In this document: positions 6,043 to 27,848 of the stretch, one piece after another | Layout of the letters: each line of letters begins with the position of its first letter | How positions within the stretch are numbered: position 1 is the stretch's first letter | From: an uncultured Pseudomonadota bacterium | GTDB taxonomy: Bacteria > Bdellovibrionota_B > Oligoflexia > Oligoflexales > CAIYRB01 | Direction: 5' to 3' | Assembly: GCA_903915625.1 (NCBI GenBank) | Contig: CAIWTN010000014.1 | Coordinates: forward strand, 1-37,262 | DNA: 37,262 bases | Made by a program: the position numbers and the translations under genes | Notes under the pieces: model-generated | Databases searched by the model: none | What the model saw: the letters and a program-made list of their open reading frames with translations, nothing else | What the model was told of the DNA's origin: nothing

Positions 6043-7356
6043 ATGAAAATCCATATTTTAGCATCAGCCTTGCTTATGGTTTGCCTGAGCGGCAATGTAT
6101 TGGCACATGCGAAACCAGCACAGAATTTGGCAAGAAGCGAAAAATTCATCCAAGTGCAAGGCACCCAATTCATAATAGGTAGTCAAGCGCATCATTTTTT
6201 GGGAACCAATTTGTGGTACGGCATCAATCTCGGGAGCCGTGGCCCAGGCGGTGACCAACCGCGTTTACTGCGAGAGCTGGATCGATTACAGGCTCTGGGA
6301 GTAACCAATCTTCGCGTCGTAGCAGCTAGCGAGGGTCCGAATGCGGCCCCCTTTCGGATGCAACCATCATTACAAACCAGCCCCGGTGTCTTCGACGAAC
6401 AATTACTGCATGGTCTCGATTTTCTCTTAGTTGAAATGCAAAAACGTGACATGCATGCAATCATGTGTCTCGGCAATTTCTGGCAATGGTCGGGTGGGTT
6501 CGCTCAATACGTATCTTGGGCGGACGGCACGTCAATCCCATATCCCGAACAATTCGGCTGGACGACCTTCGAAAACTATTCGGCTAGCTTCTACGTCAAC
6601 GACAAAGCCAAGAGCATGTATAACAGGGCTGTCGATCTTATAGTCAGCCGTGTCAACACAATCTCAGGCGTCAGTTACAGCAGCGATCCCACTATTATGG
6701 CTTGGGAGCTAGCTAATGAGCCGCGAGGACAAAATCAGCCCGATGCATATTTGAAGTGGGTCAGTGACACCGCAGCTCGCATCAAGCAATTGGACACCAA
6801 CCATCTGGTCACTACAGGTAGCGAAGGTCTGACAGCAAGCCAGGACAATACTCAAACTCGTCCGGAATTAGTGCATGCACTGCAAAACATCGACTATCTG
6901 ACCTTTCACATCTGGATACAAAACTTTGGTTGGTACGATCCACATATCCCAGCAACCTATGAAAAAGCGACGAAACAGGCTCTCGAATATGTAGAACAAC
7001 ATATAAGCATGGCCGAGCGCCTCGGTAAACCTGCAGTTTTTGAAGAATTTGGTATTGCTAGGGATGGTGGTGACTTTAATGTCACAGCAACCACTAGCGT
7101 GCGTGACCAATATTATCAAACAATGTTCGAGGCAAGCTTACAAGCGGCCACTAAGGGTCGCCCACTTAATGGGATGAATTTTTGGGCCTGGGCTGGCGAA
7201 GGCCGCCCGGTAAACGCGGGTGGTCTTTGGCAAATTGGAACCCCGTTCATCGGTGATCCACCTCACGAGCCACAAGGTTGGTACTCCGTGTACGATCAAG
7301 ACAGTAGCACCACGGACATCATAAAACACTATGCTCGGCAGATGAATTCGCTTTGA
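6043..7356 (+). CDS. Secreted GH5 endo-beta-1,4-mannanase (GH5_7-like)
   Basis: A 437-residue protein with a clear signal peptide (residues 1-21 or 23, cleavage near VLA/AHA). The mature part is a single GH5 barrel with FLGTNLWYG near the N-terminus, candidate acid/base E226 in WELANEPRG and nucleophile E335 in VFEEFG. The ANEPRG block and the long His/Trp-containing loops resemble subfamily 7 mannanases, which cut beta-1,4-mannan backbones. Cellulase activity is less likely. No carbohydrate-binding module is seen. The ribosome binding site GGGAG lies 7 bases before the ATG. It is divergent from the GH31-galM operon, suggesting shared induction by hemicellulose-derived sugars. Confidence 0.9.
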   Translation: MKIHILASALLMVCLSGNVLAHAKPAQNLARSEKFIQVQGTQFIIGSQAHHFLGTNLWYGINLGSRGPGGDQPRLLRELDRLQALGVTNLRVVAASEGPNAAPFRMQPSLQTSPGVFDEQLLHGLDFLLVEMQKRDMHAIMCLGNFWQWSGGFAQYVSWADGTSIPYPEQFGWTTFENYSASFYVNDKAKSMYNRAVDLIVSRVNTISGVSYSSDPTIMAWELANEPRGQNQPDAYLKWVSDTAARIKQLDTNHLVTTGSEGLTASQDNTQTRPELVHALQNIDYLTFHIWIQNFGWYDPHIPATYEKATKQALEYVEQHISMAERLGKPAVFEEFGIARDGGDFNVTATTSVRDQYYQTMFEASLQAATKGRPLNGMNFWAWAGEGRPVNAGGLWQIGTPFIGDPPHEPQGWYSVYDQDSSTTDIIKHYARQMNSL

Positions 7357-14374: not shown

Positions 14375-15616
14375 CTAGCCGTTACGCACTAGGCGCAGCA
14401 GGGCATCGGGGAACCACGCACCAGCTTCTGGAGCAGGCGCAAGTGAGTCACTCGAACTGCACATATAATCATAACGCGGAGCAGATGCGTCACTGGTACC
14501 GTCAGACTCTCCCGGCGGCTTGATCCAAACGAAGGCATCGATCTCAGGCATAGGCTCAGCTTGAGGGAACTTGCCAATCGCAGCATTGGCAATATTGCAC
14601 CAGCTACCCCATGATTGACGAGAGTTCTGGGCGCCATTACGCCCGGTATCAACGATGAAGTGACGGCTAGACACACCAGCAGCAGCCAGATCCTGGCTCA
14701 GCAGCTGGACATAAGTCAATTCGTCACGCGCCGGGTTGGACTGGTCATACCAAGGCGATGGACGATTGTAATCAAACTGAAGCACGCTATAATTTGCAAC
14801 GTTTGTGGCGAATCCCCGAATCTTCTCGCTACCTCCGACTCGCTGGAGCACTCGTGCGATGACTTGGGCCACGCCGCTGCGGTTACCTTGCCAGCCGAGC
14901 CAGCCACCATGCGCCATGTCTAAATAGAGGCTGATATGCTGAGCTTGTAGCTTTTCAATGGCATAAGCTACTCCGGTCTCATAATTTGCTAGAACTTCGC
15001 TCGAACATCGTCTTTGCCCAACGTTGGTTACCACGTTCGGAAGCGAGTCGGGCTCAATAACTGCAGCGATCCGCACAGTCTTATAAGCGTTCAGAACCCC
15101 AGCAACCTCATCAATATAGGAAAAATATTCCTTAAGTCCATTAGGGCCACTCAACTCGCCATTTGAGGCAGAAGCGGCACAGTCCCGATCAGGAAGGTTA
15201 TAAACGACAACGGTGGCAGTGACGGGCGATGATTTTTCTTGGCTGACCTTTAATGCAGCGTCCAAATAAATCCGCAAGCCACTAATTGCAGCTTTTTTAT
15301 CAATCCAAAAAGCCGTGCTGGCGTTTGCAATTTTATCTAATTTTTCAGATAGTTCCGGGGCACTCGCGATAGCGCTACGGACTTTTGCAGAGTAAGCCGG
15401 ATCGACAAACATTGTGCTACCTGCAAAAGGGTTTAGCCCATCAGCTAGCTCTGTAAAGGTCGATTCAGACGACACTACACCTTGCCCATTCCGCGGCCGT
15501 TCAGCGCCGGTAGGATCGTTAATCGGTGGATTTTTATGAGACTTTTTGAGGTCGCTACATGCTGTTAAAGCCATCAGTAAAGAAGCAATGCCCAGGGGAA
15601 TACGCTTCGTTAGCAT
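14375..15616 (-). CDS. GH6 family cellulase, predicted lipoprotein
   Basis: A 413-residue protein with a lipobox (LTAC, Cys20) after a hydrophobic leader, then a linker rich in polar residues and one GH6 catalytic domain. Both GH6 signatures are present: YNLPDRDC (D145) and IEPDSLPN (D190, proton donor candidate). Also present are YLDMAHGGWLGW, FATNVANY and the C-terminal WIKPPGESDG. GH6 enzymes are inverting endoglucanases or cellobiohydrolases on beta-1,4-glucan. There is no cellulose-binding module. Endo versus exo action cannot be decided. Lipid anchoring would hold it on the envelope. ATG 15616 is chosen because AGGAG is 8 bases upstream; an in-frame TTG at 15634 has no site. Confidence 0.92.
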   Translation of the reverse strand: MLTKRIPLGIASLLMALTACSDLKKSHKNPPINDPTGAERPRNGQGVVSSESTFTELADGLNPFAGSTMFVDPAYSAKVRSAIASAPELSEKLDKIANASTAFWIDKKAAISGLRIYLDAALKVSQEKSSPVTATVVVYNLPDRDCAASASNGELSGPNGLKEYFSYIDEVAGVLNAYKTVRIAAVIEPDSLPNVVTNVGQRRCSSEVLANYETGVAYAIEKLQAQHISLYLDMAHGGWLGWQGNRSGVAQVIARVLQRVGGSEKIRGFATNVANYSVLQFDYNRPSPWYDQSNPARDELTYVQLLSQDLAAAGVSSRHFIVDTGRNGAQNSRQSWGSWCNIANAAIGKFPQAEPMPEIDAFVWIKPPGESDGTSDASAPRYDYMCSSSDSLAPAPEAGAWFPDALLRLVRNG

Positions 15617-15966
15617 CAAAATCACTCCTCTCAAAATTACCGTTCCAAGTGTTGGATTTAGGTACTAGGCAGTAACTTCAGATTTTATGGCCACAACGGA
15701 ATCTTGGGCCCACAGACCTGCGGGCACATTCATCTGCATCTTGCATGCCATGGCTCAAATTATCGATTTACTGCTTTTTGGTTTCTGCATGTTAGTTATA
15801 TCCCAACAACTTCTTTTTTGCCAATACTGCGAAGAAGCGCCGAAAATGTACCGCTAAGGGCGATCGCTTTACGTCTAACGAATAGCCACCTGTCAATCCC
15901 GCAGCCGATCGCGCGACAACGCCGATGGACTTAAAGCTAGCCCGAGCGACAACACGCAGCCTATGT
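15617..15966. other. Intergenic region upstream of the GH6 gene
   Basis: This 350-base stretch holds the GH6 promoter region and the downstream region of the ceramidase gene. It includes the AGGAG site of the GH6 gene (15625-15629). I found no clear terminator for the ceramidase gene and no convincing -35/-10 pair. Short open frames exist on both strands but lack ribosome sites and recognisable features. Confidence 0.55.
15625..15629 (-). promoter_or_regulatory. Ribosome binding site fixing the GH6 start
   Basis: AGGAG on the minus strand, 8 bases before ATG 15616. The in-frame TTG at 15634 lies upstream of this site and would have none of its own. Confidence 0.7.
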
Positions 15967-18024
15967 TCAACTACCGACTTTAAACCCACTCGAACAACCT
16001 GAATATGGGCTTAATTTCCCCGTTACCGGCGCCTTGGATTTGCCGTGTTGACAAATTCGGTAGAGACCAGCGGGGGTATCCAATGGAATGCCCCAATTGA
16101 TCTTAAGTACAGAACTAGCTAATCCGTGGCGACGCCAGTGTAGGGTTGTCTGACCATCCCAATCAAAAAACATTGGTTTCCAATTCTGATCTTGCCACTG
16201 TTCTATCGTCAAGTACGAGAACCCGGGAGCAAGGCTGTTATTTGGATGTGCTCCCCAAATTTCAACAGCCGCTACTTCGCCAAGCTTATAATCAGATTTC
16301 GCATCGACCAAGATGTCGCCAAACTTGCCGCCACGTGGTGCCAAATCAAATAGAACAGGGTGCGGCAATACGACCTGTTTATGAGAGAGATCAGGTGGCG
16401 GTGCTCCCGCGGGCCGCTGCCGCCCGGTACTCATGTCAATCGCCAGATTGGCAAATATTTCAGTATAAGCTGCTAGAGACCAAGGCCCATACAGTGTAGA
16501 GCCGCCTTCGTAGGCCTGAACCTTGTATTCTTCTCTGGTAGTTACATAATGAAGATACTCATTCGTAAGCCCAGAGAGGACAACGAAACGAACTCCGTCA
16601 CCGGCCATCCGGCGCTTTATCTCTTCTTTAAGACGATGCCCAGCCACTGTGGTGATCTCAAAAGGTGCGCCGATAATGACCAATGGCCCGATTCTTAACA
16701 GTTGAAATGGCGCCACACTGGCAGTCCAGGGATTGGGCTTGGCAAAGCCCGTAGGCAACAGCAAAACCTTCTCTTGATGGCACCCCTGCTCCTTAGGCAT
16801 CAAAGTGATCCTGGGCCAGGTCTTGCCATAAATCGCATGCGATACAAAAAGTGGAAACGGCTGGCCATTAAGCGTACCTGCAGCAAAACTTTCGCCTAGT
16901 ACCGCATTACAAGTAGTGGCCTCTAACTCACCGCCTGTGAATTCCGGTGATACTTTGCGATAGGCTAAGCTCTCGAAGCGATGTGAATATGTAACCGCTC
17001 CTCGCAGCTCCTCAGCCACTGGACTCTGAAAGATTTGCCAAGCTTTATTAAACTGGCCGCGCGCTGACCATTCATTACGCTCAAATCCGTCTGTTTTAGG
17101 CAAAGAGCCGTGTGTAACATCGTGTGGACTAATATCACCTGCATTAGCCTGCATGAAGCCAGCGACGAATTCTTGGTCTTTCCGGTACGTCGCACCAAGT
17201 TGATGCTCAAAATAAAGCGAAGCCAAGCCTTTGTTGTCCCCACTCACCAATTTATTGGTAAGCGGAAGCGACACACCATGCACCGGATACCAATTGAACG
17301 CCGCAATCGGAGTGCCATCGGATGCAATAGCCTTTACAAGAAACATCTCGGTATCTGCCATATCCGGCAAAGCCGCATGATCGACTGCAGGATTAGCATC
17401 GAATGCCTCTGGCGAGCGGTTAAATTGATATCCGTACAAATGGCCTGATGACACCGACAGGTTTGCTTTCTGTCTTTGTTTATAAGCTGTAACTACTGCA
17501 CGGGCTGTACCCGCAACAATTGCCTCGAAATTATCAGGATTAAAACCATATGTAGTGATGTTGTAGAGAGTGTTGTGCGCAAAGCCGCCTGGGCCTGCGT
17601 GCGTATGAGTCGCACTAAACATCAAATTAGCATGCGTGAAAACACCTGGCAGCTCGTGCTCCAAGCGATCTATCACCGCCTGTTTGAGACCATGAAAAAC
17701 CATAGCCAGATCACCGATGACAAGTGCAATTGTAGAACCTGAGCAAGGATCGCTGACTACCATTGCGCGGGACCACAACCGCGTATGCAAACCCTCGTCA
17801 AGTTGCCCCAAATCCGCGTACCCCATCATACCGACACCGACGATTGGTCCGGTTATGTCACCACGAGCCGCACCTACAAGATATGGGGCACCATCACAAG
17901 ATGCAGACGCTTCTGCTACTTGCGTAGACAAATTCAAGATCCACAAACAGCCAATAATCGCAAAAATCCAAACCTTGCTAAATGTTCGCCTCTGTTCGTT
18001 CAAACTTATTTCTGCAAGATTCAT
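15967..18024 (-). CDS. Neutral ceramidase (alkaline/neutral non-lysosomal ceramidase)
   Basis: A 685-residue exported protein: hydrophobic signal or anchor at about 17-33 with a cleavage-like AEASAS. Family motifs: SATHTHAGPGG (137-147; Zn ligand candidates H140/H142), NWYPVHG (H249), and NAGDISP with nucleophile candidate S299. The Ig-like C-terminal domain of the family follows (about 530-685). It hydrolyses ceramide to sphingosine and fatty acid, outside the inner membrane. The length fits bacterial enzymes. The ATG has a weak AAGAGCAG site. It follows the membrane-protein gene by 24 bases, so the two are likely an operon. Confidence 0.93.
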   Translation of the reverse strand: MNLAEISLNEQRRTFSKVWIFAIIGCLWILNLSTQVAEASASCDGAPYLVGAARGDITGPIVGVGMMGYADLGQLDEGLHTRLWSRAMVVSDPCSGSTIALVIGDLAMVFHGLKQAVIDRLEHELPGVFTHANLMFSATHTHAGPGGFAHNTLYNITTYGFNPDNFEAIVAGTARAVVTAYKQRQKANLSVSSGHLYGYQFNRSPEAFDANPAVDHAALPDMADTEMFLVKAIASDGTPIAAFNWYPVHGVSLPLTNKLVSGDNKGLASLYFEHQLGATYRKDQEFVAGFMQANAGDISPHDVTHGSLPKTDGFERNEWSARGQFNKAWQIFQSPVAEELRGAVTYSHRFESLAYRKVSPEFTGGELEATTCNAVLGESFAAGTLNGQPFPLFVSHAIYGKTWPRITLMPKEQGCHQEKVLLLPTGFAKPNPWTASVAPFQLLRIGPLVIIGAPFEITTVAGHRLKEEIKRRMAGDGVRFVVLSGLTNEYLHYVTTREEYKVQAYEGGSTLYGPWSLAAYTEIFANLAIDMSTGRQRPAGAPPPDLSHKQVVLPHPVLFDLAPRGGKFGDILVDAKSDYKLGEVAAVEIWGAHPNNSLAPGFSYLTIEQWQDQNWKPMFFDWDGQTTLHWRRHGLASSVLKINWGIPLDTPAGLYRICQHGKSKAPVTGKLSPYSGCSSGFKVGS

Positions 18025-21150: not shown

Positions 21151-22392
21151 TTAGAAGAAACACTGCCCCTGGCCTCGATAAGTTGGCACGACAGCTTCAA
21201 TCTTACCACCCCGGACTAGATGCAAGCTGTTGAAGCGCTCACACAATTCACCAGCCTTAGCATGACGAAAAAATACCGGATCTCCGATTTTCAGCGTCAG
21301 GTCACTAGTTATCGATGTCTGCACTTCACCCGCCCCAAGCAGCTTCATAAGCTTAATCCCAGTTGGCAAATAGGGTGTAGGCTGCTTGTCGCTTGCAGTA
21401 GGGCCTGATGCTATATAACCGCCACCAGCGCAAGCATAAATCCCTGGTCTAGCAGCCCTTACTACGGGCAGAGCAAAACCAGCTGCCGGCAAATGCTTGA
21501 AGTTAGAATAGTGATCAAAAAGCCCGGGAGCATAAAGCCCTGAACCGACGGTTAATTCTGTAACCGAGGAATCTTGGCTAGTACTTTCAATACTGCCAGT
21601 GCCACCGCCGTTTACAAAGCGCAAGTTATAACCCAGATTATGTAGCGCCCCCACCAAGCCCTGACGCCTGGGAAAACTCTCTCTCTTCGCAATCCACTTC
21701 AGGATTCGCAGCAAAATGTTCTGTAATGGAGACCCCGGCAGATCATCAGCGACGCCCGCCAACTGAGCCTCATAGCCCATCACTCCCTCTAGGCGCACAT
21801 GTGGCAAGCTTCGCATTGCCATCAGCAAGGGCTCGGCGTCGCGGAAGTTCGTAATGGGCGACCGGAAGACACCAAAATGCAACCCAGGAAAAGAGGTGGA
21901 AAGGTCAATATCCAAACACACCGGTGCGACCACGCCCGCCGCAGCTGCCATTGCCTCTAATATCTGTACGTGATCGACATGGTCGACCATGAAGCAAATC
22001 GATCGCCCAGCCTTTAAAGCCTGCATACAAAGGCTGATTTCTGTGGTCTCCATGGTTGGATAACCCAACAGCACATCATCAAAACCCTGATCGATCAAAA
22101 ACGCAGCTTCTCCAGGAGAGAAGGCCATCACTCCACGAAAGGAAGGAAAGTTATCGAGTAAATATCTAATGACCCAAGCGCAGCGCAAAGACTTAGTCGC
22201 TAACCGCATGGGCAAGGCCCCGGCACGCTCAGATAGTGATTTCGCGTTGGCGTCGAGAAGGTCGAGGTCAACAAAGGCAAGTGGGAGCCGCTCTTTTCGA
22301 AACGTCTGCCTGTAGTATTCGTAGTCACGATTCAACATTCTAATCGTATAGCGCAAAAGCGGCCCAGGGTCAAAACGACTGCAGTCCAACAT
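21151..22392 (-). CDS. PLP-dependent amino acid deaminase/aldolase (alanine racemase-fold, D-threonine aldolase-like)
   Basis: A 413-residue fold-type III PLP enzyme. FVDLDLLDAN (40-49) opens the barrel and the PLP lysine is K67 in LRLATKS-like MRLATKSLR. GVMAFSPGEAAFL and the NGGGTGS phosphate-binding loop follow, with a C-terminal beta domain. Relatives act on D-amino acids or D-3-hydroxy amino acids as dehydratase, aldolase or deaminase; the substrate is not readable. No ribosome site precedes either ATG 22392 or the later ATG 22338, so translation may be coupled to the lipoprotein gene ending 24 bases upstream. Confidence 0.8.
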   Translation of the reverse strand: MLDCSRFDPGPLLRYTIRMLNRDYEYYRQTFRKERLPLAFVDLDLLDANAKSLSERAGALPMRLATKSLRCAWVIRYLLDNFPSFRGVMAFSPGEAAFLIDQGFDDVLLGYPTMETTEISLCMQALKAGRSICFMVDHVDHVQILEAMAAAAGVVAPVCLDIDLSTSFPGLHFGVFRSPITNFRDAEPLLMAMRSLPHVRLEGVMGYEAQLAGVADDLPGSPLQNILLRILKWIAKRESFPRRQGLVGALHNLGYNLRFVNGGGTGSIESTSQDSSVTELTVGSGLYAPGLFDHYSNFKHLPAAGFALPVVRAARPGIYACAGGGYIASGPTASDKQPTPYLPTGIKLMKLLGAGEVQTSITSDLTLKIGDPVFFRHAKAGELCERFNSLHLVRGGKIEAVVPTYRGQGQCFF

Positions 22393-22416
22393 AGACTAGC
22401 ACCGCAGAAAGTCGGG

Positions 22417-23811
22417 CTACTTCTTTACGGCATTCAGAATTGGAGTCATGATTGGCTCAACGCTGGCCCCATCCTGCATACTCGCACAGGTCGGCTCACT
22501 GCCAGGCATGACCTCGACATGCAAAGTACAGCTATTTACGCTTTCCGTTGTAGCCACAAAGTCCAGCGCCACTCTCCCGTAGCTACCGCCGACAAAATAT
22601 CGTGTAGCCCAATCTAGCGTCGGTAGCCCTTGATTCTGCGCCAAAGGCAACCCCCTTACGTTAGTCCAAAACCATTGACCTACATCGTTATCAACCTGCT
22701 GCACCAAGTCATCTGCGAATGATAGCCCGCCCACTTGACCAAATGTATCCCTGACACCAAAACCATCCTCGCCCATAGAACCGGCACAATGTCCCTCTGG
22801 ATTGCGGAACTTCCGATGCTGACAATCACCACTCGCCCTCAATCGCCCAGATAACCCAACCAGCTGCGGCCAAAGCTTCAGGAAGCCGCGGTACTGGACT
22901 TGTGTCAGCACATGCTCCGTTGATAAAAAGACTCGATAATGACAATTAGATGGCTGAATAACATCTGCGCTGCAGACCACTTGCGTCAATTGCGGAGCAA
23001 GCGACTCGCTGGACCCTAGTTCAAAACGAGGACCTTCACCTGGGCGGGATAAAATCTGTACGCCGTAGGCCATCGGTTTCCACTGTTTAGTGAATACAGT
23101 ATCAGCGCGGATAGAACGCACATACTGTACGTGATGTCTTAAAACATCGCCGAGTGCAGCACTGCTCGCCACTGTGGTCTCTTTTGTTTTAACGCTGAGT
23201 TCGCCGGATTCTCCTATAACCGCTACCGGCACGCTGGAGGTGTTAGCATTTGAAGCTTCGGTAGGTTTCGGCCAAGCCTTGGGGTCTGGGGGAGGATTCC
23301 ACGGCCTAATGACCACCGACTCGGGACTCAATTTCCACGCTCCAAAACTATAAGTCACCGAGACATTTGGATTGACCTCGCGACAGCCCAACCCACTTCC
23401 ACGACGATGGTCGCTGCTTAAGAGTTGGGTTAACTTCGGACCATCTCCCTCAATTTGCGAGTACCAAGGATGTCCGCAGCTATTAAATGGTAACTCGTAC
23501 CCCAAAATATCGGCCACATTCACAAGGCCGATATGGTCATGTTTGTCACTCAGGTCAGGATTAAGACCCATAATTTTCTTAGAAATATTGAAAAGCGCCT
23601 GACTCTCATCAAGCACCAAAGAATAATCCCCCCTCTCAGTACCGCTTAGGTTTAAGGCTGAGCCATTCTGGGCTCCCCCCAAGGCTAAGTTGCTTTGGTT
23701 ACTAGAAGAAGGTCGCGGCTTACAGCCAACCAAAGAGATAAATACCACAGCAGTCGCACAGACAAGAGGCTGACGGTAATCGCATCGGAATAAAAAATAA
23801 TTGTAATGCAT
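22417..23811 (-). CDS. Large lipoprotein of unknown function, 464 aa
   Basis: Not recognised. The leader ends in a good lipobox (SLVGC, Cys30). The next stretch is Ser/Asn/Gly-rich and likely a flexible linker. The mature protein has about eight cysteines (for example NSCGH, GLGCRE, CSADV, SNCHY, GDCQH, GHCAG, NSCTL, PTCAS), suggesting disulfides in an exported domain. Hydrophobic and Trp-rich strands near FLKLWPQL and QWFWTNV imply a folded body, possibly enzyme or binding protein. It precedes the PLP enzyme by 24 bases, a probable operon. Confidence 0.8.
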   Translation of the reverse strand: MHYNYFLFRCDYRQPLVCATAVVFISLVGCKPRPSSSNQSNLALGGAQNGSALNLSGTERGDYSLVLDESQALFNISKKIMGLNPDLSDKHDHIGLVNVADILGYELPFNSCGHPWYSQIEGDGPKLTQLLSSDHRRGSGLGCREVNPNVSVTYSFGAWKLSPESVVIRPWNPPPDPKAWPKPTEASNANTSSVPVAVIGESGELSVKTKETTVASSAALGDVLRHHVQYVRSIRADTVFTKQWKPMAYGVQILSRPGEGPRFELGSSESLAPQLTQVVCSADVIQPSNCHYRVFLSTEHVLTQVQYRGFLKLWPQLVGLSGRLRASGDCQHRKFRNPEGHCAGSMGEDGFGVRDTFGQVGGLSFADDLVQQVDNDVGQWFWTNVRGLPLAQNQGLPTLDWATRYFVGGSYGRVALDFVATTESVNSCTLHVEVMPGSEPTCASMQDGASVEPIMTPILNAVKK

Positions 23812-23923
23812 AGCTACCAGTATATCGCAAGAACATGCGCAACTGGTAGCAAGCCTAATCAGCGCCTAGGCACCAACGTCTGGACTATTTAAATCAAATC
23901 GCAACGAAGGCACGGGACACTAG

Positions 23924-24358
23924 TCAAAGCCACCCGCGTTCGCGAGCGTACTTCTCACTGACTACATAAAACGATTCGCCTGAGTTCAGAATCTGAGCTG
24001 TAAAAGCATGCTCGCTACCACATGCCGCGATCTGCGCATCAAAGGCCATGCGCCGACCATCAGACCTGACCCTCACAACTAGGCGCAGATCTTCCTCGTT
24101 GGCAAACTGGGCCCTCAAGGCGGCAACTTCATTGTCCGGGGCGACCATGATGAATTTTCTGACGCCACATTCATCATCGCACGAGCGGTAGATTGTATGA
24201 AGGATGATGATGCCTCCATTTTCAATTCCAACATCAGTAAATGTTGTCGGAACTTCAACAAGCTCATCATTTACGGTTGCCAAAGCAACCTTAGCACTGG
24301 CCAACATCAAGAAGATCGAGGTTGCGATGCTAGCAACCGATGCAAACTTCCTACTCAT
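23924..24358 (-). CDS. Small secreted protein of unknown function
   Basis: A 144-residue protein with a clear signal peptide (about 1-27, core SIFLMLASAKVALA). The mature part has three cysteines (C60, C64, C113), alternating beta-like segments (GGIIILHTIYRSC; DLRLVVRVRSDGRR) and a final helix. Not recognised as a known family. Its ATG overlaps the stop of the upstream regulator gene (ATGA), which ties translation of the two. The regulator could respond to or control this protein's stress, or both could form a toxin/immunity-like or sensor cassette; neither is shown. Confidence 0.75.
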   Translation of the reverse strand: MSRKFASVASIATSIFLMLASAKVALATVNDELVEVPTTFTDVGIENGGIIILHTIYRSCDDECGVRKFIMVAPDNEVAALRAQFANEEDLRLVVRVRSDGRRMAFDAQIAACGSEHAFTAQILNSGESFYVVSEKYARERGWL

Positions 24359-25134
24359 GCATCGCTCCTGTCGCGGTTCAATGGGGTCCTGTCATAGATA
24401 TTCATCATCATGTCAACAAATAGCGGAATATCGCCGCTATTCCGGGGATCATCCTTCAAGTCAATGACATCTCTTATAGCAGAAGAAAGGATGTCATGAA
24501 TGCGTTCAAGCGTCCTCTGATCAATAGACGCGGTTGCATGGAACAGGCGAGCTGCCTTGGTACCGATCAAACTGCGATCGAAGTGGTCCGCTGATAACTT
24601 CATCTGCGCCAACGCCATATCACAATCGCTGGAAAGCATGGCTGGCAAACGATAGATGGTGTCTTTGCCAACCCGTTCGACCTGCATAACCTCATGCTCA
24701 ACCAGCTCATCCAAAGCCTCGACCCCACGCTCGCCAGCAATACGCTGGACGGTTTCACGAGTCGTACCCCTGTCATTGTGTGCCAGATTAAGGATGTAGT
24801 TATGGGGATCGCGAACATAAAAAGCCTTGAGCGCTTCTTGTCGGGGCGAGTTTGACGCAAACGCCCCAGCCTGTAAGCCACTGACGTTCACAACTATCTC
24901 TGGATAGTACCGACGGATAAATTCCAGCTTCTCCTCGTTATTGAGGGCAACATCGACAATTTTGAGCACAGGCTCAGCAGTCGGGTTACCCTCCCTCTGA
25001 TACAATCGGCGCAGAGTGGTATAGCTGACACCCGAGGCTCTTGACAAGGTCGCTAGTGAGCGGTTGCGATGACCGTTAAGATAACGATCAATAACATTCC
25101 TTAGATTGTCGGAAAGTTCCCCCGTGCTCGTCAC
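24355..25134 (-). CDS. Helix-turn-helix regulator-like protein
   Basis: A 259-residue protein with an N-terminal HTH (about 26-47, LATLSRASGVSYTTLRRLYQ), where 'VSYTTLRRLY' resembles a recognition helix. A helical middle follows, with a second winged-like part (about 120-170: TTRETVQRIAGERGVEALDELVEHEVMQVE) and a helical end rich in charged residues. The architecture recalls XRE-type regulators with a C-terminal sensor found in Bdellovibrionota-like genomes, but no named family was identified. The GTG start has GAGGG 4 bases upstream. It overlaps the secreted-protein gene by 4 bases. Two palindromes lie upstream and are candidate self-operators. Confidence 0.7.
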   Translation of the reverse strand: MTSTGELSDNLRNVIDRYLNGHRNRSLATLSRASGVSYTTLRRLYQREGNPTAEPVLKIVDVALNNEEKLEFIRRYYPEIVVNVSGLQAGAFASNSPRQEALKAFYVRDPHNYILNLAHNDRGTTRETVQRIAGERGVEALDELVEHEVMQVERVGKDTIYRLPAMLSSDCDMALAQMKLSADHFDRSLIGTKAARLFHATASIDQRTLERIHDILSSAIRDVIDLKDDPRNSGDIPLFVDMMMNIYDRTPLNRDRSDA

Positions 25135-25557: not shown

Positions 25558-26538
25558 TCAATTGCGGTCAGCCTCAAGCCGCTCCAAGGTCCGAATCCGC
25601 TCTTGGTCAGTCGCAGTAATGGTAAGGCCTATATCGAACAATAAATCGTCTGCCCCCGGCTTCAGTCCCAGCGCCAAATCGAAGGGTAGGGCCAACTCTG
25701 CCATGTGCTCTCTATCTCCAAGCTGAAGATCAGAAACCACCTCAGTCAGTATAGTTGCCAGTAGACCCGCACCCAATGCGCCCAAAGCTCTGTGATGAAC
25801 CGTCCAACGGCGCAGCGCATACTTCTGGAGCTTGAATAAAAATCCAAACACTATCAGGCCGTAGCTGAGATGGCGCAAGTAACCAGCGCCCACCAAGTTA
25901 TGAAGATTGAAAATCAACATGGGCATGAAGACGCTAGTAGCTTTTGCCGTAGCAAAGGTAAAGGTGATTAAAAGCAACACATTATAGAAATGAAATTGCT
26001 TCACATTTAGTTTGCAGAACAAGGAGACGACAAAAGCCGCAGCTACTGTAGCCAACCAAATGAGCACTGCCTTACCTAATAAGGAACCAAAGCGTTCGGG
26101 GGGCCAGTACAGCTGATACTGATCTACAGCGGGTACCAATCCAGCAATTAATAGCGCCAGTAGTAGTCCGATTACAATTTTTGCAGTAACCCACCTCGTG
26201 TTTTCACTATGCTCATGCGGCAGCAGACGATTTGCATGGGTGCGCTCCGGTAAATCTTTGGTGATAAAATCGAGGCGCACATCTCCCAAGTAAACCGTTT
26301 CAAGTGCGGCCAATGCAACTTCGCGAACTCGCTCACCACGCAGCCAGATACCATTTGTACTATGCATATCTCGAAGCAAGTAACCATCGACTGTTGCATG
26401 AACTTCGGCGTGACGAGCCGAGACACTCGGATCATCGATCCGCACTCCACAGTGCATGGATCGACCGATAACACATGGAAAAATCTCAATCCGAGATATT
26501 TCAAGGCGCTCGGGCTCATGAACTTTAACCAAGATCAT
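25558..26538 (-). CDS. FHA-domain membrane protein
   Basis: A 326-residue protein with an N-terminal FHA domain (about 3-92): GRS at 25-27, SARH at 40-43 and the STNG loop at 60-63, the residues that bind phosphothreonine. A linker (93-116) is followed by about five membrane helices (first at 119-137), and a C-terminal soluble tail of about 50 residues. The FHA domain would face the cytoplasm and read Ser/Thr phosphorylation. Its ATG overlaps the protease gene stop (ATGA), so the two are translationally coupled. No kinase or phosphatase lies in the window. Confidence 0.85.
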   Translation of the reverse strand: MILVKVHEPERLEISRIEIFPCVIGRSMHCGVRIDDPSVSARHAEVHATVDGYLLRDMHSTNGIWLRGERVREVALAALETVYLGDVRLDFITKDLPERTHANRLLPHEHSENTRWVTAKIVIGLLLALLIAGLVPAVDQYQLYWPPERFGSLLGKAVLIWLATVAAAFVVSLFCKLNVKQFHFYNVLLLITFTFATAKATSVFMPMLIFNLHNLVGAGYLRHLSYGLIVFGFLFKLQKYALRRWTVHHRALGALGAGLLATILTEVVSDLQLGDREHMAELALPFDLALGLKPGADDLLFDIGLTITATDQERIRTLERLEADRN

Positions 26539-27848
26539 CGGGACTCCGGCCGAATGCTATTTATTAATGTCCGTAAGATTGCGAGCACATTGTGCGAGGA
26601 AAAACCGAGAAAGCTCCCGGCGAGCATAAATGCTTTTTGCCCTTCATTTATCGTAGCCAACTCGAATTCCAGGTTATAGGACTCTGCGTATGGAATATAG
26701 CTATTCACGCAATAATGTACTCGCATGGGCACTTTGTAAGTATTGAGCAAATCAAGCTGATGACATTTAATTTTAGTCGTAAATTTATCCACAGATTCAG
26801 TTAGATTAAAGGCAAAATCATCCAAGGATTCGTTAATGTAATGCACGAACTGCAGCTTATTTAATAACCGGTTCTCTACAGCTTGGTATTTAAGACGAAA
26901 AGTCCCAGTATCCAAATATCGACGAATCGAAGTCGCTCCAGACAAGTAGCATTGCTCACTGATAATTAAAGTCTCATCACGCGGCCCACTCTCTTGTGAG
27001 TGCCAACACTTAACCATCTGATTAGGCTTAAGTACCTGCCACCCTCCGATGTTAATGTTACTGCTCCCACCCTTTAAAAAAGTCGCTGTAAGCTGCTCCT
27101 GAACTTGCTCAATTTGACCACGCATCTCTTCATCAAATGTTGCATGATCCTCAGGGCGACTAAAAATCACAGGCTTTTTCTTCATCAAGGATCGAAGTAG
27201 ATCCTGCGGCACAGCAAATGCAAGACTCTGTGAATCGGTTCGCAATGAAACATTAACGCCAATTACCTCACCAAGTTCATTTATAGTAGGACCACCACTC
27301 ATTCCAGGGTTTAACGGAATGGACATCTGAATTTTGCGGTATGGGCCAGCAGTCATTAAACCGTTAAAATTCCCTTCGCTAACCGCCTTGTTCAGATCTT
27401 CAGGCCAGCCAATTGAATAAATTTTGTCGCCAGCATCTGGGAGTCCTGAAGCCAGCCGAACCGCTTTAGAGAATATCTTGTCTACTCGCACTATCGCGAT
27501 ATCATTGACTGCATCGAAGGCCACTACCTCAGCCGGAATTATGTGATCACCATCGAGAAGGAAGAGATGGTACTTTTCCGGATCATGAAGCGCAAATGCG
27601 ACAACGTGAAAATTAGTCGCCAAAAGCCCTGCCGTGGCGATCACAAAACAAGAGCCATAGGCAGCCTTGGGCGCAGTTGAGTCAGTGGCGATTTTAATTT
27701 GGTAGACCTCATTAAAAACGCTGGCGACAAGTTTACTATTGGCGGGTAATGTTTCGGCGCTCGCTAAGCCAGTGGCTATAAAAGAACAGGTCAAAAGGTT
27801 GAAGGTGAACACTATGAGCTGGGATAGTTCTAGAAAAAGGCGCGCCAC
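26535..27848 (-). CDS. Exported trypsin-like serine protease with extra C-terminal domain
   Basis: A 437-residue protein with signal peptide (about 1-31, TGLASA cleavage). A chymotrypsin-fold domain (about 35-225) carries the full triad: H81 in TNFHVV, D116 in NDIAIV, S184 in GMSGGP, in the HtrA-like pattern. There is no recognisable PDZ. Instead the last 200 residues form an unrecognised domain with four cysteines (KCWHSQ, EQCYLS, IKCHQ, HYCVN). The start is GTG with GGAGG 7 bases upstream. It overlaps the FHA gene by 4 bases and is divergent from the DUF420 gene. Periplasmic quality control or signal cleavage is plausible. Confidence 0.88.
   Translation of the reverse strand: MARLFLELSQLIVFTFNLLTCSFIATGLASAETLPANSKLVASVFNEVYQIKIATDSTAPKAAYGSCFVIATAGLLATNFHVVAFALHDPEKYHLFLLDGDHIIPAEVVAFDAVNDIAIVRVDKIFSKAVRLASGLPDAGDKIYSIGWPEDLNKAVSEGNFNGLMTAGPYRKIQMSIPLNPGMSGGPTINELGEVIGVNVSLRTDSQSLAFAVPQDLLRSLMKKKPVIFSRPEDHATFDEEMRGQIEQVQEQLTATFLKGGSSNINIGGWQVLKPNQMVKCWHSQESGPRDETLIISEQCYLSGATSIRRYLDTGTFRLKYQAVENRLLNKLQFVHYINESLDDFAFNLTESVDKFTTKIKCHQLDLLNTYKVPMRVHYCVNSYIPYAESYNLEFELATINEGQKAFMLAGSFLGFSSHNVLAILRTLINSIRPESR

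Follow-up and report, generated by a model that had tools for sequence, protein, structure and literature searches.

Overlapping genes for an HtrA-like exported protease and an FHA-domain membrane protein, kept together in three distant bacterial groups, probably encode a transmembrane control unit

The window (the whole stretch of DNA that was analyzed, 37,262 nucleotides) carries on its minus strand a gene for an exported trypsin-fold serine protease and, overlapping its stop codon, a gene for a membrane protein with an N-terminal FHA domain. The features of this locus are as follows.

26535..27848, minus strand: gene for an exported HtrA/S1C-like trypsin-fold serine protease, 437 aa, GTG start (ORF, Pfam, AlphaFold2, and Foldseek)
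27756..27848, minus strand: predicted signal peptide, protease residues 1-31, with AXA-type cleavage ASA/ET (read from the sequence)
27297..27608, minus strand: span of the catalytic triad, with H81 at 27606-27608, D116 at 27501-27503, and S184 at 27297-27299 (sequence and alignment)
26538..27176, minus strand: unassigned C-terminal domain of the protease, residues 225-437, 213 residues (AlphaFold2 and profile searches)
26709..27008, minus strand: four invariant cysteines of that domain, C281, C300, C362, and C380 (alignment; strands from AlphaFold2)
26535..26538, minus strand: 4-nt ATGA stop/start overlap of the protease and FHA genes (sequence)
25558..26538, minus strand: gene for the FHA and five-helix membrane protein, 326 aa, ATG start (ORF, Pfam, and AlphaFold2)
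26254..26538, minus strand: predicted cytosolic FHA domain, residues 1-95 (Pfam and AlphaFold2)
25726..26199, minus strand: five predicted transmembrane helices, residues 114-271, N-in/C-out (AlphaFold2 and charge pattern)
25561..25725, minus strand: C-terminal tail, residues 272-326 (~55 residues), predicted periplasmic, acidic, with a terminal helix (AlphaFold2 and charges)

Residues 65 to 198 of the protease matched Trypsin_2 in Pfam (E 7.8e-20), and a trypsin fold was seen in the AlphaFold2 model (pLDDT 81.5, pTM 0.80). The H81/D116/S184 triad is intact in the window protein and was invariant in 30/30 aligned proteases. The N-terminal hydrophobic stretch reads as closing with a signal-peptidase I-type AXA site at residues 29 to 31, and a gammaproteobacterial homologue (L136) likewise has an AXA site. 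When the whole protein, rather than its C-terminal domain alone, was used as the Foldseek query, the best 50 matches were all trypsin-fold proteases; HtrA, DegS, Deg1/Deg5, MarP (3k6y), and RsgI9-type (7sjy) structures matched the catalytic part. The protein has the trypsin-fold domain and His-Asp-Ser triad of family S1C, but the PDZ domain of that family was not found in it by Pfam or NCBIfam searches. Scores for the NCBIfam equivalogs DegS (52.4 bits; cut-off, 422.95) and MarP (54.1 bits; cut-off, 250) fell below threshold. There is no fused CvpA-type membrane domain on the chain either, which carries only the N-terminal signal. The protease is predicted from these features to be periplasmic and without a membrane anchor of its own once the signal peptide has been cleaved.

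The C-terminal domain matched nothing in Pfam or NCBIfam or, when a C-domain profile was used, among PDB sequences, and its profile became the family-defining feature in our genome searches. Structure prediction, which the sequence-only reading had proposed as a check on this domain, gave a long helix (model residues 203 to 230) followed by two beta-rich parts, each ending in a helix (AlphaFold2). Both this model and the cysteines differ from PDZ. All four cysteines were invariant in 23 aligned sequences spanning all three lineages in which the pair occurs. Since each successive pair of cysteines faces across a predicted beta hairpin, two disulfides are likely. The same reading had called the domain unrecognized and Cys-rich; it is unrecognized, but four cysteines in 213 residues do not make it Cys-rich. 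The strands and cysteines follow one another in a way that hinted at an internal duplication, but this was not supported when the profiles of the two halves were compared (probability, 0.3 percent).

In the second protein, residues 22 to 77 matched FHA (E 2.7e-13; 50.6 bits, above the Pfam gathering cut-off of 20.7), and the modeled domain resembles solved FHA domains. The phosphothreonine-site residues R26, S40, H43, N62, and G63 (motifs GR, SxxH, and NG) are present in the window protein and were invariant in 29 sequences from its genus and from a Myxococcaceae-like family. Their retention in two lineages suggests that the domain really does read phosphopeptides. Among the gammaproteobacterial sequences scored, 9/18 (including L146, L140, and L142) carry Cys where SxxH has Ser, with the R and H retained.

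The AlphaFold2 model of the membrane protein, of modest quality (pLDDT 71.6, pTM 0.46), comprises the FHA domain, five helices, and a C-terminal helix. Mean charges over 29 homologues were +3.0 for loop 2-3, +1.8 for loop 4-5, about 0 for loops 1-2 and 3-4, and −4.6 for the tail, a positive-inside pattern that places the FHA domain inside and the tail outside. The membrane region had no Pfam match, including none to CvpA. The whole protein scored 32.8 bits against TagH (TIGR03354; cut-off, 120.25), and all scores against other NCBIfam membrane and signaling FHA families were well under their cut-offs. Between lineages, the membrane part is weakly conserved (about 10 to 17% to the window protein), which weakens the case for a specific common interface within it; an LLPP-like tail motif is common to the Myxococcaceae-like members and several gammaproteobacterial ones. 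The sequence-only reading had described the locus correctly in proposing a periplasmic trypsin-like protease (export being predicted) that overlaps by 4 bases an FHA domain with about five helices: both ORFs lie on the minus strand and have a common ATGA. The predicted periplasmic tail is an addition to that description.

Conservation and co-occurrence of the two genes, a check that this reading had proposed, gave strong results. Of the searched genomes, 106 had the C-domain; 6 belong to the window's genus, 64 to the Myxococcaceae-like family, and 36 are of gammaproteobacterial type. In 105 of these the protease gene is directly followed by that of the five-helix partner, in the same strand and order and nearly always with an overlap; in the 106th (L183) the locus ends at the end of a contig. 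Within the genus, 6/6 genomes carry both genes side by side, and a search of 58 genomes from the window's phylum found the C-domain in no other genus. A profile search of 195 genomes of another phylum detected the C-domain in 64, all of which fall within a single Myxococcaceae-like family (f41; 64/96 genomes). A profile of the membrane part recovered the identical 64 genomes, each with the two genes adjacent and on a single contig and strand.

One further genus (G533) came from a wide search of 383 genomes; its gene content (trpS, rpe, nhaA/nhaR, and dam) suggests a gammaproteobacterial origin. Across the order of this genus, the C-domain occurred in 19/296 genomes from 14 genera, with the FHA-membrane gene directly downstream in 19/19 and start codons that allow overlaps of 1 to 16 nt. 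In its class, the C-domain was found in 18/284 genomes and the membrane part in 15, adjacent in 15/15. Of the three apparent exceptions, one is the contig-end cut in L183, and the other two (L181 and L182) have a five-helix gene directly downstream, so that the partner was adjacent in 35/35 assessable genomes of gammaproteobacterial type. The membrane-part profile, run against 96 and 284 genomes, revealed no orphan partner, and no relatives were found on plasmids. A single-protein search of genome contigs matched only a near-identical Lake Pavin MAG. For both genes, dN/dS was about 0.06 to 0.09 (two genome pairs), indicating strong purifying selection. The pair is not a product of chance.

The L181 and L182 loci are syntenic, with tyrS upstream and a Dps-like gene downstream. 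In L182 (4066-4950), the FHA fold is still recognized (26.5 bits; cut-off, 20.7), with changed residues at GR, S, and NG. In L181 (4607-5245), the FHA domain is gone, leaving a 213-residue protein of five helices and tail that is 37% identical to the matching part of the L182 protein over 203 residues (E 1e-27). Despite this decay and loss, the protease, overlap, helices, and tail are all retained, which makes the membrane part the obligate partner and the FHA domain an input that can be dropped. The irreducible core is the protease with its membrane partner, and the FHA domain most plausibly acts as an input from the cytosol.

Pkinase matches numbered 5 to 12 per genome in 6/6 genomes of the window's genus. 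In the order of G533, at least one kinase was present in 19/19 pair-bearing genomes versus 26/30 controls without the pair; because kinases are this common in pair-less genomes, their presence is not diagnostic and was rejected as a discriminating correlate. In one family (f285), the gene that comes next on the strand of the pair, 222 to 374 nt past it, encodes a Hanks-type Ser/Thr kinase in 4/4 genomes (L156:9797-12160, L167, L170, and L172); after the kinase gene lies one with weak TPR matches. Around the pair in the window's genus, no kinase motif turned up. Several Myxococcaceae-like genomes (loci L104, L105, and L110) have a phosphofructokinase/Ser-Thr kinase/TPR/FHA-GAF-sigma54 activator cluster beside the pair. 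Clusters of this type are reminiscent of pkn4-pfk, but the family is very rich in kinases, and the cluster is for this reason weak evidence.

A fixed wider operon was rejected, since neighbors vary between lineages and even within the genus: CheB/CheR-like genes lie directly upstream of the pair in one genus genome, and an unrelated divergent gene does so in the window. Downstream of the pair in the window (21151-25134, minus strand) are an HTH gene and genes for a small exported protein, a 464-aa protein without known family, and a PLP-type racemase-like enzyme; their order is likewise kept in most of the genus. One genome (G003) has two diverged copies of the pair (L120:54-1858 and L119:8387-10680) with the same HTH gene after both; the second copy, diverged and at a contig edge, has the protease, FHA, and downstream HTH genes together. 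Elsewhere in the window, a large secreted enzyme that by eye is neutral ceramidase-like (15967-18024, minus strand) is encoded near GH6-like (14375-15634) and GH5-like (6043-7356) glycosidases.

The joint occurrence of the two genes in three distant bacterial groups makes it probable that they form one undescribed transmembrane control unit, and the topology, with the FHA domain inside and the protease and partner tail outside, makes this the best reading. Our preferred form of it, with a nearly even chance of being right, is a conserved protease unit in which the partner tethers and gates the protease and the FHA ligand switches or places protease activity from the inside out. The C-domain, which sits where DegP/DegS have PDZ, would dock on the membrane partner, whose periplasmic tail and loops are the most likely site of contact, and this docking would tether and gate the protease at the inner membrane. 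In the cytosol, the FHA domain would bind a protein that a Hanks-type Ser/Thr kinase has phosphorylated on threonine, and binding would alter the partner so as to switch or place protease activity outside. We infer the physical contact, the gating, its direction, and the nature of the FHA ligand as a kinase product. Counting against this reading are the Ser-to-Cys change in half of the gammaproteobacterial FHA domains scored, the absence of a kinase motif near the pair in the window's genus, the frequency of kinases in pair-less genomes, the weak conservation of the membrane part, and the modest quality of its model.

The full proposal, that Ser/Thr phosphorylation in the cytosol is read by the FHA domain and, by way of the five-helix partner, governs a periplasmic HtrA-like protease, in a system undescribed and present in at least three distant lineages, is possible but falls short of an even chance. 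Known couplings between a periplasmic protease and the cytosol (DegS/RseA and RsgI) run outside-in via anti-sigma factors, and if the proposal is true, a unit joining Hanks-kinase signaling to a periplasmic protease would be new wiring. Because the pair occurs in genetically tractable groups (Myxococcaceae, by our reading, and marine gammaproteobacteria), direct testing is possible.

The sequence-only reading had suggested a transmembrane signal unit that links proteolysis outside to phosphorylation inside. Its pairing and topology hold up; its direction is mildly countered by the FHA loss in L181/L182. Modeled on DegS and its start of the RseA cascade, such a relay would have the protease sense envelope stress through the C-domain, cleave the partner's periplasmic tail, and so shift a cytosolic partner of the FHA domain. 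The HtrA/DegS-like fold of the protease agrees with this, as does a conserved partner tail predicted to lie on the protease side. If the FHA domain were the output, however, its loss should abolish function, yet L181 keeps protease, helices, and tail. We regard this relay as improbable; the natural loss of the FHA domain in one lineage while the protease was retained argues mildly for inside-out over outside-in control.

That same loss bears on a static role for the partner, mainly as membrane anchor or assembly factor of an envelope quality-control protease, in which the FHA domain would only place the complex, perhaps by addressing it to, e.g., a phosphorylated division or growth protein, and would switch nothing. 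The protease pairs obligately with the helices and not with the FHA domain (L181), and it has no anchor of its own, whereas MarP-like proteases have fused membrane helices. The phosphothreonine residues kept in two lineages, in contrast, suggest phosphopeptide reading, though not the gating of activity. A purely static partner seems unlikely to us, if worth serious consideration. Mere co-expression of two proteins that do not interact is very hard to credit: an overlap can stem from co-translation alone, and the kinase neighbor is limited to some lineages, but across the three lineages just these two genes stay together in 105/105 assessable genomes while the neighbors differ. Inside-out control of a tethered protease remains the reading that we prefer.

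As the sequence-only reading had supposed, the open-access literature yielded no description of the pair, a provisional result given that most subscription papers lie outside that scope. PMC7159879 concerns different systems, and the main text of the Kil locus paper mentions FHA proteins and no protease. Two protein domains without an assigned family come with the pair: the C-domain with its four cysteines and the partner with its five helices.

Among known systems, the catalytic domain is placed with DegS/HtrA (S1C), exported trypsin-fold proteases with a Ser-His-Asp triad, by Foldseek and NCBIfam; the protease of the pair differs from these in having no PDZ domain and no N-terminal anchor and in having an unassigned C-domain with four cysteines and, as a separate protein, the five-helix FHA partner. 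Like MarP (Rv3671c; structural match 3k6y), the pair combines a trypsin-like protease outside with a multihelix membrane module, but MarP is a CvpA-like fusion, whereas the pair is two genes whose membrane part bears a cytosolic FHA domain and has no CvpA Pfam match. Two of the nearest precedents are in PMC2605481, which lists a Colicin_V-Tryp architecture and an FHA-FHA-Tryp fusion, NP_811686.1 of Bacteroides thetaiotaomicron; RsgI9, below, is the third. The fusion likewise unites FHA and trypsin-type domains within one system, but it is one polypeptide in which FHA precedes the protease, and the passages on it mention neither a five-helix part nor the C-domain (PMC2605481). RsgI9 of Clostridium thermocellum, a membrane anti-sigma factor with an S1C peptidase-NTF2 module, similarly joins an outside S1C-type domain to a cytosolic signaling domain (7sjy; PMC12203970), but on a single chain with an anti-sigma output and without FHA (PMC12203970). 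In TagH/T6SS, GltG, FhaA-MviN, and KilF, FHA is a phosphorylation-dependent input to envelope machines, as it may be here, but these systems are without a protease partner. Set beside them, the pair is undescribed and widely spread; it joins a protease type and a phospho-reading domain that are both known to two parts that are unassigned.
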